From Verrucomicrobia bacterium LW23 (GTDB taxonomy: Bacteria > Verrucomicrobiota > Verrucomicrobiia > Methylacidiphilales > UBA1321): 64,000 nt of DNA. Location: assembly GCA_003054695.1 (NCBI GenBank), contig QAZA01000030.1:1-64000 (forward strand). Reading direction: 5' to 3'. The notes under the pieces are model-generated. The model was not told the origin of the DNA and made no database searches. It was given only the letters and a program-made list of their open reading frames with translations. Below are positions 35,569 to 45,404 of this stretch, in pieces (positions within the stretch are counted from its first letter, which is position 1; every line of letters starts with the position of its first letter). Both the position numbers and the translations under genes were made by a program.

Positions 35569-35732
35569 AGACCCATTATCGGAATAAACCGGTACGTTGG
35601 CGGGACGCTTTTGAGCGAGGGCGGCGTTGAGTCTTCGGTCATGCATTTTTCAGATGCACTCCCTCAGCCTCGCCTTGCCCTCATATCAAAATCGCCTCCA
35701 CCAATGTACCGGTTTATTCCGACAATTGGTCT
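35569..35732. repeat. 164-bp palindromic element next to the SDR gene
   Basis: Outer arms of 32 nt (35569-35600 and 35701-35732) match with three mismatches and share the core CGGAATAAACCGGTAC. The pairing continues inward with gaps (TTTTGA...GAGGGC parts). The right end abuts the TAA stop of the SDR gene, so on the minus strand the stop is followed by GACCAATTGTCGG. No gene lies within; MITE-like or a large bidirectional terminator between convergent genes. Confidence 0.6.
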
Positions 35733-36757
35733 TACTCAAACTTCTTGCCGCGATCTTCCGGCACGATGCGGCGCAGCGTGTAGATATCGCCGCGCAGGTC
35801 CTGGCGGAAGGCGGCGAGGTTTTGCCATGGGTCCCACTGGGCGCTGAGGAGTTTGCCCGTGATGCCGTTGCTCTCCGTAGAGGCGAGCCAGGCGCAGAGG
35901 GCGGCGCCTACGGAGGGGTCGGTGGTGCCGCCTTCTTCCATCCAGTGGACGTTTTTGGCGTGGTAGGCTTCGCCGGCTTTCTCGGGGCCGGCGTCGACGA
36001 CTTCCTGCATCATCCGGGTGCGCATGGCGCCGGGAGCCACGGCGTTCACGTCGATGGCGAACTCGCGCAGCTCCTCAGCCATCGTCTCGGTAATGCGCAC
36101 AACGGCCGCCTTGCTTGCCGCGTAGGCGCTGCAGCGCGGCATGGGCGCGGTGGCGCCGCCGCCGGAGAGGCTGATGATTTTGCCTCGCGACGGAGGCGGG
36201 GGCGGGAGTGACGTGGCAGGGGCCGTGCCGGACGGGGGCACGGCTTCCGCCGCCGCGGCTGTGGTGGGCGTGGTGGAGGGCACGGCTCCCACGGCGCCCA
36301 GCACGTCCAGCACATCCCCGGCCGCGGCCTCGGGCGCCGGCTCCAGGGCGTTTTCCTTGAGCAGGGGGATGACTTCGCGGCACATGTTAAGGGTGCCGAA
36401 CAGGTTGATCTCCACGGCGCGCATCCAGGCGCCCAGGTTCACGTCCTCAATCCGGCCGATGGGGCCGAGCGTGCCGGCGTTGTTGATGAGCACGTCCACG
36501 CCGCCCATGGCCAGCGCGGCCTCACTCACAAACTGCCTCACCTCCGCCGGGCTGGAGATATCGCACGGGATGCCAAACAGCACGCTGCCCCATGCCTGCT
36601 CCGCATGCAGTTCCTTCAGCGTGGCTGTCAGCTCCTCCCCATTGCGCGAGCAAATGCTGACGGACGCGCCGCCCCGCAGAAATGTCCGCGCGATTTCCTT
36701 GCCCAGCCCGTGGCTGGCGCCGGTGATGATGACACGCTTGTTGGTGAGGTTGGTCAT
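35732..36757 (-). CDS. Short-chain dehydrogenase/reductase with low-complexity insertion
   Basis: A 341-residue NAD(P)-dependent oxidoreductase. The cofactor motif RVIITGASHGLGKEIA, the structural VLINNAGTLGPIG, the catalytic serine region GKIISLSGGGATAP and the Tyr-Lys pair in AYAASKAAVVRITE are in order, followed by VNAVAPGAMRTRMM. Between the helix ending PLLKENALEP and GKIIS there is an extra segment of about 50 residues rich in Ala, Pro and Thr (GAVPSTTPTTAAAAEAVPPS), making the protein about 70 residues longer than usual. It lies 12 bp downstream of the epimerase gene, so the two likely form an operon in sugar metabolism. Confidence 0.92.
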   Translation of the reverse strand: MTNLTNKRVIITGASHGLGKEIARTFLRGGASVSICSRNGEELTATLKELHAEQAWGSVLFGIPCDISSPAEVRQFVSEAALAMGGVDVLINNAGTLGPIGRIEDVNLGAWMRAVEINLFGTLNMCREVIPLLKENALEPAPEAAAGDVLDVLGAVGAVPSTTPTTAAAAEAVPPSGTAPATSLPPPPPSRGKIISLSGGGATAPMPRCSAYAASKAAVVRITETMAEELREFAIDVNAVAPGAMRTRMMQEVVDAGPEKAGEAYHAKNVHWMEEGGTTDPSVGAALCAWLASTESNGITGKLLSAQWDPWQNLAAFRQDLRGDIYTLRRIVPEDRGKKFE

Positions 36758-37905: not shown

Positions 37906-38292
37906 ATGGATACGGATGAAACACCCGCCTCACCGCAGCAAACCGCGCCCCGCCGTAGCGAGGGCGGCATCAACGGCACCCGGCGGGGTGCGGGCGCTGG
38001 CGGCACGGTGGCGCTGGTGCTGATCTCCCTGGCGCTGCTGTATGTGCTCAGCATTGGGCCCGTGTGCAGGATGGCGGGGGTGCAGGCCATCCATCTCTCG
38101 CGAACAAGCTCCGCGCCAGGCTATTATGTGGAGGGCTTCGATGCCGCCACCACCTTTGTACCGTACATCGATACCGTGTACGAGCCTTTACTCTACGGTG
38201 CCTCCTGCACCAACGTTACCCGTCAGTGGGCGGTGGCGTACCTGCGGCTGTTTGGTATCGACGTCTACGATTTCCGCCCCCGGGCTTTCTGA
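37906..38292 (+). CDS. Small membrane protein, paralogue 1 of 3
   Basis: A 128-residue protein from the ATG at 37906. After a polar N-terminus (PRRSEGGINGTRRGAGAG) comes one membrane helix ending in the signature LLYVLSIGPVCRMAG, then an extracytoplasmic domain with VYEPLLYGASCTN and the end LRLFGIDVYDFRPRAF. Two more copies of the same arrangement lie at 38781 and 39168. The family is not known to me. The shared PVC(R/Q) cysteine just after the helix might be functional, but it is not at a lipobox position. Confidence 0.7.
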   Translation: MDTDETPASPQQTAPRRSEGGINGTRRGAGAGGTVALVLISLALLYVLSIGPVCRMAGVQAIHLSRTSSAPGYYVEGFDAATTFVPYIDTVYEPLLYGASCTNVTRQWAVAYLRLFGIDVYDFRPRAF

Positions 38293-38435
38293 AAGCCCTT
38301 GGTGACCGACGGGGTGGCCGGCGCGCTGGTGCCCAAATCCCCGGCCGCGACCACGGCAAGCCCGCCGCCCGACACACCTCCCTGAGCGCACCAACTCCAG
38401 CCCCAACCACAGCTCCATCCCCATCCCCCGCAGCC

Positions 38436-38777
38436 ATGCCCTCCTCCTCCCGCGAACTCGCTGAGCACATCGCCGACATCCTGCGCCCGCTGGGCCGCGT
38501 GGTGGAGGTGCGCCGCTTCTTCAGCGGCTTCGAGCTGCGCGTGGACGGTGAGCAGTTGCTTATGCTGCACGAGAGCGAGATCTACTTCCGCGTGCCGACC
38601 GACGCCCTGCGCGCGGAGTTGCGCGAAGCCGGCGGCGCGCCCTTTACCTACGCCTCCAGCAAACGCAATGTCACCGTCCAACGCTACTTCGGCGCGCCGG
38701 CGGACTGGATTGAGGACGCCGAGCGCCTGCTGGATTTTGCCCGCCGCAACCTGTCCGCGCTGCGGGAGGAGAAATAA
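38436..38777 (+). CDS. TfoX N-terminal-domain protein
   Basis: A 113-residue protein from the ATG at 38436. It matches the TfoX-N pattern: ELAEHIADILRPLGRVVEVR, RFFSGFELRVDGEQLLMLHE, SEIYFRVPTDALRAELREAG and GAPFTYASSKRNVTVQRYFG. Full-length TfoX/Sxy regulates competence with CRP in gamma-proteobacteria; stand-alone N-domains have unknown roles. It starts 143 bp after paralogue 1 and ends 3 bp before paralogue 2, so it is in the same transcript. Confidence 0.85.
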   Translation: MPSSSRELAEHIADILRPLGRVVEVRRFFSGFELRVDGEQLLMLHESEIYFRVPTDALRAELREAGGAPFTYASSKRNVTVQRYFGAPADWIEDAERLLDFARRNLSALREEK

Positions 38778-38780
38778 GGA

Positions 38781-39095
38781 ATGAGCATGCAACCCACACA
38801 CCCAACCGCTTCGGCGCCGCCGCACGGCAACCGCCTGAGCCCCCCGACAAAGGCGGCCGTGACATTGATTGTGGCCGCTGCACTCTACGTGCTTAGCCTT
38901 GTGCCTGTGTGCCAGATGGCCGGCGCCAACTTTCTAATGGTCCGCGGCCCCCGCCTGGAGATCTACCGCAGCCAACCGGGGGTGCTCAGGCCCGAGATTA
39001 CCGAGATGCCCTGGTTGAGCGCGGCGTACTGGCCGCTGCTGTACCTGGCCGGCAGCACCGACGCTTCGCTGGAATTCACCCGTGCCTGCCTGTAA
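38781..39095 (+). CDS. Small membrane protein, paralogue 2 of 3, apparently truncated
   Basis: A 104-residue protein with the same helix and signature as its neighbours (ALYVLSLVPVCQMAG, then AYWPLLYLAGSTD). It stops at TAA 39093-39095, but the same frame continues for 21 codons to a TGA at 39159-39161 (PAGIFVTPFEIRRIRMNLHV). That stretch aligns with the end of paralogue 1 (AYLRLFGIDVYDFRPR against ACL*PAGIFVTPFEIRR). Read through, it would be 126 residues, close to its siblings at 128 and 120, and would end 6 bp before the next start. So the stop is probably a nonsense mutation, or less likely a read-through site. Confidence 0.65.
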   Translation: MSMQPTHPTASAPPHGNRLSPPTKAAVTLIVAAALYVLSLVPVCQMAGANFLMVRGPRLEIYRSQPGVLRPEITEMPWLSAAYWPLLYLAGSTDASLEFTRACL

Positions 39096-39167
39096 CCTGC
39101 CGGTATCTTCGTAACGCCTTTTGAGATTCGCCGTATCCGCATGAACTTGCACGTCCACTGAACCTCT

Positions 39168-39530
39168 ATGAGCAACGACACGAACGACTCATCCCCTGCG
39201 CACGCCACCCCGCGCGCACGCGACGGCAGGCCCGGCTATCCCGCCACATCGGTCGCCACGGCCCTGCTCGCGGCGCTGCTTTTCTATGTGCTAAGCGTCG
39301 GGCCCGTGTGCCGCTTTTTTGCGACTGGACCGAGCGGAAAGGGGATTATGTGGATCAGCGTCGTCAAGTCGGGGACGGGCAGAACAATGCATATTGCCGA
39401 CCCTGCCCAGTCCGCTTTAATCACCTTCTACTATCCGCTCTTTCTGGCGGGGGTGCAGAAATCCTCCGCATGGGCGCCTGTGCAGTGGTATCTGCTCCAA
39501 TGGGGGGTCTTTGTCCTGATTGATGACTGA
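39168..39530 (+). CDS. Small membrane protein, paralogue 3 of 3
   Basis: A 120-residue protein with polar N-terminus (DSSPAHATPRARDGRPG), one membrane helix ending LLFYVLSVGPVCRFFA, and an extracytoplasmic part with TFYYPLFLAGVQKSS and the end QWYLLQWGVFVLIDD. The shared pattern with paralogues 1 and 2 is the helix plus YVLSxxPVC, an aromatic-rich YxPLxxxAG block, and a hydrophobic end. It is followed immediately by the hairpin at 39530. Confidence 0.68.
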   Translation: MSNDTNDSSPAHATPRARDGRPGYPATSVATALLAALLFYVLSVGPVCRFFATGPSGKGIMWISVVKSGTGRTMHIADPAQSALITFYYPLFLAGVQKSSAWAPVQWYLLQWGVFVLIDD

Positions 39531-39755: not shown

Positions 39756-40397
39756 ATGTTCGATTCGATTATCAAGTTTGTTGTTGTCGGCGGCGCGTGG
39801 ATGATTCCGATCGGCATCTGCTCCGTGGTCTCCATCGCCATTATTCTGGAGCGCGCGTGGGCGTTGCGGCGCTCGCGCATTATCAATGCGGAGCTGGCCG
39901 AGGCGATCCTCGAGATGCGGCACGGCGGACGCGTGACGGAGATCGAAGAGCTTTCCGCGAATGAGGACTCCACCCTGGCCCGCCTGGTGCGCAGCTGCCT
40001 GCGCCACCTGCCGTGGAGCAAGTACGAGAACAGCGAAGCCCTGCAAACGCGCGCCCGCGCCGAGGTGGGCAAGATGGAGCGCGGCCTGGTGATCCTGGAG
40101 ATCGTCGTCGGCATCGGCCCGCTGCTGGGGCTGCTCGGCACCATCGGCGGCCTCATCCACATCTTTGCCACCGTGGGCGGCGGCGGGGCGGACATGAGCA
40201 CCAAGGGCGTCGAGATTGCCCAGGGCATTGCCGAGGCGCTGCACACCACCGTGGCCGGCCTCGTCGCCGCCATCCCCTCGCTCATCGCCCACAGCTACTA
40301 CCTGCGCCGCATCGACGGCTACTCCATCGAGCTCGAGACGCTGTGCGTCGATCTGCTGGGCAAGATTTACACGGAGCCTAACGAGCTGGATTCGTAG
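39756..40397 (+). CDS. MotA/TolQ/ExbB-type proton channel protein
   Basis: A 213-residue inner-membrane protein. The first helix (VVGGAWMIPIGICSVVSIAI), a long cytoplasmic loop, and the paired helices 2 and 3 (GLVILEIVVGIGPLLGLLGT then IAEALHTTVAGLVAAIPSLI) match ExbB/TolQ, including the conserved GPLLGLLGTIGG and the threonine in the third helix that lines the proton path. Normally an ExbD/TolR gene follows; here the next gene is an unrelated oxidoreductase, so the partner must be elsewhere. It would power outer-membrane transport or cell-envelope work. Confidence 0.9.
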   Translation: MFDSIIKFVVVGGAWMIPIGICSVVSIAIILERAWALRRSRIINAELAEAILEMRHGGRVTEIEELSANEDSTLARLVRSCLRHLPWSKYENSEALQTRARAEVGKMERGLVILEIVVGIGPLLGLLGTIGGLIHIFATVGGGGADMSTKGVEIAQGIAEALHTTVAGLVAAIPSLIAHSYYLRRIDGYSIELETLCVDLLGKIYTEPNELDS

Positions 40398-43643: not shown

Positions 43644-45404
43644 CTAGCGGCGGACGCGGAAGACGGGCTGGTTGATGGGGCCGCCTTCTTCCATCAGGAG
43701 GGCATCTTCGCCTTCGCCATCGCCATCGCCATCCTCGCTGGTGGTGGCGCTGGGGATGTTGGCGCCGCCGGCGGGTTCGGGGCCGAAGCGCAGGAGTTTG
43801 ACGGCGTGGGGGAGGATGGAGATGTTGCCCATGCTGGGGCCGGTGCCGGTGAGTTTGTCGGCCTCCCACTTGTCCAGCTTGATGGTAATGCGGCCTCGGC
43901 CGACGAGGTGCACGCCTACCTCGCCGGGCTGGCGTGTGGCGGGGGCGCCGGTGGAGGTGGCGGAGGGGATGGGTTTGGGGGTGCCGTCTCCTTCGGGCTG
44001 GGCGGGGGCGTCGGGTTGCGGGGCTTCGGCGGCTTCGGGTTGCTTCTTTTTGCCTTCGGCGTCGGCGCCCTCCTTTTCTTTTTCCTTTTCTTTCTCTTTG
44101 TCCTTGGCTGCGGCCGCGGCTGCTTCGGGCGTTGCAAAGGTCAGCACATCAATGCGTTGCATGGGGATGGAGAGGGTGGCGTAGGGGCTCTCCAGCATGA
44201 CTTTACCGTCCTTGATGGCGGTGAGTTTGCCGGTGATTTTATCCTGGTTGGCGAGGATAAGCGTGTCCTCGGGCACGCCTTTGGCGGTGGCGGAGGGGGA
44301 TTCCTCGGTCACGCGGCCGTCCCATTTGCTGACGCGGAGGCGGCGGATGCGGATGAGGCCCTGGCTTTGGTTGTAGAAGGAGATGCCGGTGCCGCCGCCG
44401 GCAAAGTTGCCGGTATCCTTAAAGGTGCGGATGAGGGCGTCGTCCACGTACAGGGAGATGGCTTTTTGCTCCTTGTTGGTTTGCAGGCGGATGCGGGCGC
44501 TGTTTTTGCGCTGCATGCTTTCCACCTGGGCCTGGCCCAGTTGATTCTGGCCGCCGTTGCGGCTCATGCGGCTGACGTAGATGTAGCCGTTGCCTATCTG
44601 CGCCATGTAGGAGTTACCGCCGTAGCCTTTCAGCTCGTCGGTATAGATGCTGACGCCGAGGGAGAACTGGCCGGTCCAGGAGACATCGAACTCGATGGTC
44701 GACATGTCGGGCAGTTTGAAGTCGCGCCCGGTAAAGCCGCTGCGGGTGCTGATGAGGGCGCCGTCCTTGTAGCGCCAGGTGTTGCGGGCGCCTTGCTGGG
44801 TTTCCCAGCCTTCCATGTCCTTGGGGCCCTCAAACAGCAGGTTGCCGGCGCCGCGGATGGGCACCATGCCGGCCAGGGCGTCGCGGTTGATTTTGAGGGT
44901 GCCTGCATAGACGGTGTCCAGCACCAGGGTTTTGTCGTCCAGGGTGACGACGGTGCCAGGGAGTTCGTCGCCGTTTTTCAGGGTGACGACGTAGCTGCCT
45001 TCCGCCAGGGCGGGGGCGGTTTTGCCGGGGGATTCACCGAGCAGGACCTCCTTGAGGCCGGGGAGCATAAAGCTGATGTCCTGCTTGGCTTCGGTGGAGT
45101 TCCAGCGCAGGGTGTTATCGGCGGCGACGGCTTGCAGCAGTTTGCCGCGCAGTTTGTCGCCGTTGAGGAAGAAGAGGACATCCGGTGTGGCCGCGGTGGC
45201 GGCGGCGGGCTGGGCGCCGGAGGTATCGGACGGGCCGCCGGTGGCGCCGGGCACGACAATGGTGTTGGGGCGGCCGGGCGGCGGTGCAACGTCCACGGGC
45301 ACACGCAGTTCCGCGTACAGGCTTGCTGTGGCGGGGATCAGGGCCATGGCGGCCAGGGCGGCGACGGAGAGGGGGCGGCGGAGCGTGGCGTGGCGGGAGG
45401 GCAT
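43644..45404 (-). CDS. Secreted ConA-like protein with four beta-repeat modules
   Basis: A 586-residue protein with a signal peptide (residues 1-31, LSVAALAAMALIPATASLYA). Two modules of about 45 residues (75-124, FFLNGDKLRGKLL; 136-183, VTLKNGDELPGTVV) precede a beta-rich ConA/DUF1080-like region (about 190-365: WRYKDGALISTRSGF, GLIRIRRLRV). A third module (377-421, ILANQDKITGKLTAIKDGKV), a Lys/Glu-rich linker and a fourth module (503-546, GNISILPHAVKLLRF) follow. The modules share a pattern of a polar-residue turn, short strands and a hydrophobic end. It is 83 bp downstream of the prenyltransferase-like gene. An extracellular or periplasmic binding role is inferred; no catalytic residues are evident. 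Confidence 0.78.
   Translation of the reverse strand: MPSRHATLRRPLSVAALAAMALIPATASLYAELRVPVDVAPPPGRPNTIVVPGATGGPSDTSGAQPAAATAATPDVLFFLNGDKLRGKLLQAVAADNTLRWNSTEAKQDISFMLPGLKEVLLGESPGKTAPALAEGSYVVTLKNGDELPGTVVTLDDKTLVLDTVYAGTLKINRDALAGMVPIRGAGNLLFEGPKDMEGWETQQGARNTWRYKDGALISTRSGFTGRDFKLPDMSTIEFDVSWTGQFSLGVSIYTDELKGYGGNSYMAQIGNGYIYVSRMSRNGGQNQLGQAQVESMQRKNSARIRLQTNKEQKAISLYVDDALIRTFKDTGNFAGGGTGISFYNQSQGLIRIRRLRVSKWDGRVTEESPSATAKGVPEDTLILANQDKITGKLTAIKDGKVMLESPYATLSIPMQRIDVLTFATPEAAAAAAKDKEKEKEKEKEGADAEGKKKQPEAAEAPQPDAPAQPEGDGTPKPIPSATSTGAPATRQPGEVGVHLVGRGRITIKLDKWEADKLTGTGPSMGNISILPHAVKLLRFGPEPAGGANIPSATTSEDGDGDGEGEDALLMEEGGPINQPVFRVRR

Follow-up and report, generated by a model that had tools for sequence, protein, structure and literature searches.

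Single-helix membrane modules carrying the motif YxLSxGP very probably constitute one undescribed family of PVC bacteria that is linked to protein kinases, and three tandem genes in the window (the whole stretch of 64,000 nucleotides that was analyzed), P0001, P0002, and P0003, encode members of it. In the family plan, a polar N-terminus leads into a single membrane helix that closes with YxLSxGPx; a variable linker then connects it to YxP(L/V) and to a short helix with Y..xW at its end. The residues Y, S, P, Y, and P are near-invariant among family sequences at 25-30% identity. The trio and two neighboring genes are arranged as follows:

37906..38292, + strand: P0001, family member, 128 aa (open reading frame; independent profile, 25.7 bits)
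38436..38777, + strand: TfoX_N-domain protein, 113 aa (PF04993, 53 bits)
38781..39095, + strand: P0002, family member, 104 aa, truncated copy (open reading frame; pairs with P0001 in the tree)
39168..39530, + strand: P0003, family member, 120 aa (open reading frame; independent profile, 30.3 bits)
39756..40397, + strand: ExbB/TolQ-type protein, 213 aa, downstream of the trio (MotA_ExbB, PF01618, 87.6 bits)

The original prediction of three tandem paralogues was borne out, as the open reading frames lie exactly where it had placed them, in agreement with the profile scores and with a codon-usage gene caller trained on the window genome, which called all three as genes. All three proteins combine a polar N-terminus with a single membrane helix and a later YxPL. 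In P0001, the helix ends in LYVLSIGPVCR and is followed by a variable insert, predicted to be extracytoplasmic, YEPL, and a C-terminal helix with YLRLFGI (no W), while P0003 has a helix ending in FYVLSVGPVCR, then YYPL and a C-terminal YLLQWGV. P0002 retains both the helix, ending in LYVLSLVPVCQ, and YWPL, and its C-terminal helix is cut by a TAA. The predicted shared ending (F/L)YVLSx(G/V)PVC(R/Q) was therefore seen in all three proteins. The predicted block YxPLxxxAG held for its YxPL part, but AG is neither common to the trio (P0001 reads YEPLLYGAS) nor a family feature. The C-terminal helix is retained in P0001 and P0003, which carry the helix motif, YxP, and this helix, but is missing in P0002, which has only the first two elements.

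In the P0002 frame (38781-39113), homology resumes beyond the in-frame TAA, where PAGIFVTPFEI lies opposite LRLFGIDVYDF of P0001; because homologous sequence continues after its stop, P0002 is a truncated copy. The aligned parts within the trio show 35-37% pairwise identity to P0001. On the independent small-protein profile, P0002 scored 10.4 bits, with the match confined to the helix region, and it is tied into the family mainly via P0001, with which it pairs in the tree (support 94/90), whereas the position of P0003 lacks resolution. The trio is old, and the claim of old local duplication is supported by this pairing together with the greater similarity of same-locus copies described below.

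The independent profile drew only on small proteins (n=23) of genomes other than the window genome, without kinases, and was controlled with 600 shuffles keeping composition and the hydrophobic block. Its scores for P0001 and P0003 (25.7 and 30.3 bits) compare with a shuffle maximum of 6.8 bits. Searches with 30 members, and with P0001-P0003, found no Pfam or NCBIfam family above the curated cut-off and no PHROGs or PADLOC family, leaving isolated weak matches only, and the PDB gave no sequence match for the family. The prediction of one undescribed family was upheld. Similarly, no description of a YxLSxGP family turned up in the part of the literature that was covered, on kinases of PVC bacteria and on families of paralogous membrane proteins. 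P0001-P0003 were also considered as bacterial lipoproteins and rejected, since the lipobox [LVI][ASTVI][GAS]C is absent from their helix ends, which read S-x-(G/V)-P-V-C with no small residue at -1, and since the helix-end Cys is peculiar to some window-genome copies and not conserved in the family. Moreover, no protein kinase domain was matched by Pfam in the trio, the membrane module being the only part in common with kinases.

The presence of a TfoX-N gene within the group and an ExbB/TolQ-like gene after it was confirmed by Pfam, and the stop codon of the TfoX_N gene lies 3 bases before the P0002 start. This adjacency favors the earlier view that the trio forms a dedicated system with both neighbors. 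However, the genome has a single TfoX_N gene, which thus cannot flank the other ~19 family loci, neither partner lies beside other family members, and the expected recurrence of a TfoX-N neighbor was not observed, no Pfam family appearing more than 2 times among 56 immediate neighbors in the window genome and others. On these grounds the dedicated system is not supported and can hardly be credited. TfoX_N itself (PF04993) has its true match only in the neighbor at 38436-38777 and is unrelated to P0001-P0003. The surroundings in the window are of a sugar-nucleotide type, with an epimerase, a Gfo/Idh/MocA oxidoreductase, a GHMP kinase, and a nucleotidyltransferase. Elsewhere in the window, a short-chain dehydrogenase (35732-36757) has a ~50-residue Ala/Pro/Thr-rich low-complexity insertion inside an otherwise standard fold, matched by Pfam in two stretches, and a 586-residue protein with a Lys/Glu/Pro-rich stretch (43644-45404) has no Pfam match at E <= 0.001.

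The neighbors of family members differ at almost every locus, and some copies adjoin membrane-complex genes, namely a nuoL-like gene (C1) and an RND pump gene (C56). Small accessory subunits typically have a single helix and a short outer cap, as does the family. Together with these two neighborhoods, this architecture would suit stand-alone proteins that serve, each at its own locus, as accessory subunits of membrane-bound enzyme complexes for respiration, transport, or envelope assembly, the kinases described below having borrowed the helix as an anchor. Such subunits usually remain linked to their enzyme, yet the family changes neighbors from locus to locus, and this explanation is considered unlikely.

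In the window genome, a first profile made from the trio matched further members, and better profiles gave 33 matches at E <= 0.01; read as distinct open reading frames, the matches comprise ~32 clear members at 20 loci and three weaker candidates. Seven of the 20 loci are tandem, with three copies each on C30, on C23, and at C45:308 kb, four on C34, and two each on C26, C50, and C21. A match of the 3-sequence profile to a ccsA-like protein in this genome was judged on reading to be due to chance, as were its weak matches in relatives (a LysM protein and antisense frames). Similarity between copies is greater within loci than between them (p = 1.6e-8), indicating that local duplication is the main source of copies. 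Partial or degenerate copies, including C23_c and C34_d, are found among them, and the whole domain is not kept in every copy. A single origin of the copies was also considered, but their tree is too weakly resolved to support it (29/44 inner branches below 80). No copies were found in any of nine same-family relatives in a fully scored search.

Searches of other genomes recovered homologues in Verrucomicrobiota and Planctomycetota. The domain was present in 17/195 genomes of an even sample of the phylum. In a class sample, in which few candidates were scored per genome, 16/286 genomes were matched, several of the weak matches being chance on reading. One strict pattern, run against 84,980 named species genomes, yielded 15 confirmed loci, in Verrucomicrobia, Limisphaerales, Pedosphaera, Opitutae, a Victivallis-labelled MAG, and two Planctomycetota. 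Stand-alone members are sparse across Verrucomicrobiota and also occur in Planctomycetota, often in tandem. The suggested recurrence in other Verrucomicrobiota is supported, with members in many families of the phylum and, in addition, in Planctomycetota. Tandem copies recur as well, with three in a row in the planctomycetotal L109, two each in L100 and L108, three in G188, and two in G159. The L105 record, labelled Proteobacteria, has a member that shares 44% identity with one from Verrucomicrobiales (L104) and is probably a mislabelled MAG. Another extended architecture is seen in a 188-residue member (L165:6114-6680, G420), whose extra ~110-residue C-terminal part has a CPDG...CSCG-like cysteine pattern.

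A viral or mobile origin was rejected, as no relatives were found in viral contigs and no match to plasmid records. The same negative results bear on the possibility that the family consists of toxin/immunity, phage, or defence-related small membrane proteins, for which the small size, hydrophobicity, tandem arrangement, and fast-diverging outer part could speak; the neighbors are, however, housekeeping genes, no PADLOC or PHROGs match was obtained, and the kinase fusion points elsewhere, making this reading highly improbable.

Profile searches of the phylum also placed the domain inside long proteins of other classes, which on reading are Ser/Thr kinases (n=10). Their architecture consists of Pkinase, a double zinc ribbon, a coil, and then the YxLSxGP domain as the only membrane-spanning segment; the domain lies at the C-terminus in G386, G333, G406, and G414 and is followed by a ~400-residue extension in G321, G311, G335, G323, G359, and G361. 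With kinases left out of the training profile to exclude circularity, the independent small-protein profile scored six of them at 52, 42, 32, 29, 28, and 23 bits, against 6.8 for the best of 600 shuffles. A 5-sequence profile of the window genome gave 32 and 29 bits for two kinases (shuffles <= 10.4), the other four being not clearly above chance. As judged from sequence, Ser/Thr kinases of PVC bacteria have the same domain as their membrane part. The conserved double-zinc-ribbon/coil kinase is itself found in several GTDB Verrucomicrobiota families outside the class of the window (L158:8370-10607, L159:6116-7906, and L160-L163).

The module kinases resemble Hanks-type kinases of the PknB/PASTA kind (PMC3145798, PMC6428115) in combining a cytoplasmic kinase, one helix, and an outer part, the module filling the helix-plus-outer position in all ten. 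In PknB-type kinases, the outer domain controls activation or localization (PMC3145798, PMC6428115). Unlike PknB/PASTA kinases, however, the module kinases are without PASTA repeats, have an outer part that is a ~45-residue helical cap, and carry a double zinc ribbon and a coil between kinase and helix; the window proteins differ from Hanks-type kinases in lacking any kinase domain. A further likeness is to the DZR (PF12773) kinases of Kiritimatiellia/Lentisphaeria-type genomes (GTDB Verrucomicrobiota), whose only membrane segment is the same YxLSxGP...YxP...W domain. In contrast to the window family, these kinases are single per genome and always fused, and the multicopy stand-alone form was found only in genomes in which the kinase was not.

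The zinc-ribbon kinase was present in 7/22 genomes tested, one per genome, apart from a weak partial zinc-ribbon match in G386, and none was found in the 15 genomes with stand-alone copies (the window genome and 14 others). As such, the stand-alone proteins cannot regulate it in the window genome, and the idea that they serve this kinase in trans there was discarded. Although the stand-alone and kinase-fused forms look complementary, they also track taxonomy, belonging to different classes, and the pattern is therefore no evidence of a functional swap.

Structure predictions are in keeping with the family plan. The AF2 model of the L100 member (87 aa, pLDDT 87) is all-helical, with a membrane helix at 13-31, further helices at 33-42, 44-56, 58-66, and 70-86, and breaks near SxGP and YxP. 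The P0001 model (pLDDT 74), with a helix at 31-56, strands at 61-80, and helices at 86-115, follows the L100 plan with a strand pair added in the variable linker. Foldseek comparison of the two models with the PDB returned nothing significant.

An N-in/C-out topology of the module is supported, though indirectly, by two kinds of fusion. In the kinase fusions, the helix comes after the kinase domain. On C45 of the window genome, a 788-residue protein (C45:132990; L171:5844-8210; ~132,846-135,210, minus strand) has a long Pro/Ala/Glu-rich N-terminal part, one family domain, and then a tail (SPYARYSGKIDARGHKRGTLLRCPYTNRIFVLP) with the pattern SPYA...G.(V/I)D.RG...GT..RCPYTN(K/R)IF.(V/L)P. The same tail otherwise ends short proteins that on reading are lipoprotein-like, with a signal-peptide-and-Cys start, in 29/30 related genomes. 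In addition, the N-side of the helix carries slightly more positive charge. The short tail-bearing proteins (L214-L224; e.g., the C-terminal 40 residues of L222) are ~140 residues long, end in SPYA...VDVRG.PPGT.VRCPYT.KIF.VP, occur in 29/30 genomes of the order without a Pfam match, and apparently represent a conserved envelope protein that lacks a family model.

Selection was uneven along the module. Pooled over six close pairs, dN/dS was 0.28 in the helix plus motif, compared with 0.58 in the linker and 0.47 in the cap. The helix is conserved while the outer part changes rapidly, which may reflect either relaxed constraint or diversification, both fitting the data. For a syntenic orthologue pair in congeneric genomes (L042/L044), dN/dS was ~0.87 over 80 codons, an imprecise value owing to few changes, compared with 0.01 to 0.46 in twelve neighboring genes, and could mean weak function. 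The main rival explanation builds on this pair: the module would be a generic membrane anchor, and the stand-alone copies would be weakly selected, arise in tandem, and decay in place, leaving an expansion that is mostly neutral. The stop in P0002, the partial or degenerate C23_c and C34_d, and the absence from nine same-family relatives agree with such turnover. A generic anchor, however, would not need YxLSxGP and YxPL to be kept together across phyla, and both the near-invariant motif residues and the low dN/dS of the helix plus motif argue against it; it is rated as possible but rather doubtful. It is very unlikely that the stand-alone copies form a diversified membrane receptor-like repertoire, with a conserved helix docking to common partners and a fast-diverging cap for different ligands, that stems from the input module of a PVC-specific Ser/Thr kinase through gene fission (or is ancestral to that module, with gene fusion).

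Beyond the family unity, kinase fusion, tandem expansion, and relative constraint of helix versus cap, which are documented at the sequence level, we propose with some reserve a role in signal input or partner binding for the module, by analogy with the PknB-type kinases above, and a function as small membrane subunits for its stand-alone copies. The polar, disordered N-terminus would lie in the cytoplasm, and the membrane helix, capped by YxLSxGPx as the best conserved and most constrained part, would be followed after the variable linker by a short helical extracytoplasmic cap (YxPL..., ending in Y..xW). The module would anchor the protein or complex in the inner membrane, and the rapidly diverging outer cap may bind envelope ligands or other copies. 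In kinases, it would act as a signal-input or dimerization element. The stand-alone form, which has multiplied by local duplication in the window genome and others, would supply small membrane subunits or modulators that contact other partners through the same helix and cap. The lack of a recurrent neighbor as a visible functional partner, as well as of a PDB fold match, weighs against this mechanism, as do the failure to find the zinc-ribbon kinase in genomes with stand-alone copies, the high dN/dS of the L042/L044 pair, and the copies with an incomplete domain.

In summary, a domain that related classes employ a single time, within one conserved kinase, is present in ~32 copies in one genome. 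The present analysis names a family left blank by annotation pipelines in Verrucomicrobiota and Planctomycetota and offers a testable lead on it, and if the module is a kinase input element, the signal of the kinase and the meaning of the expansion would become directly testable.
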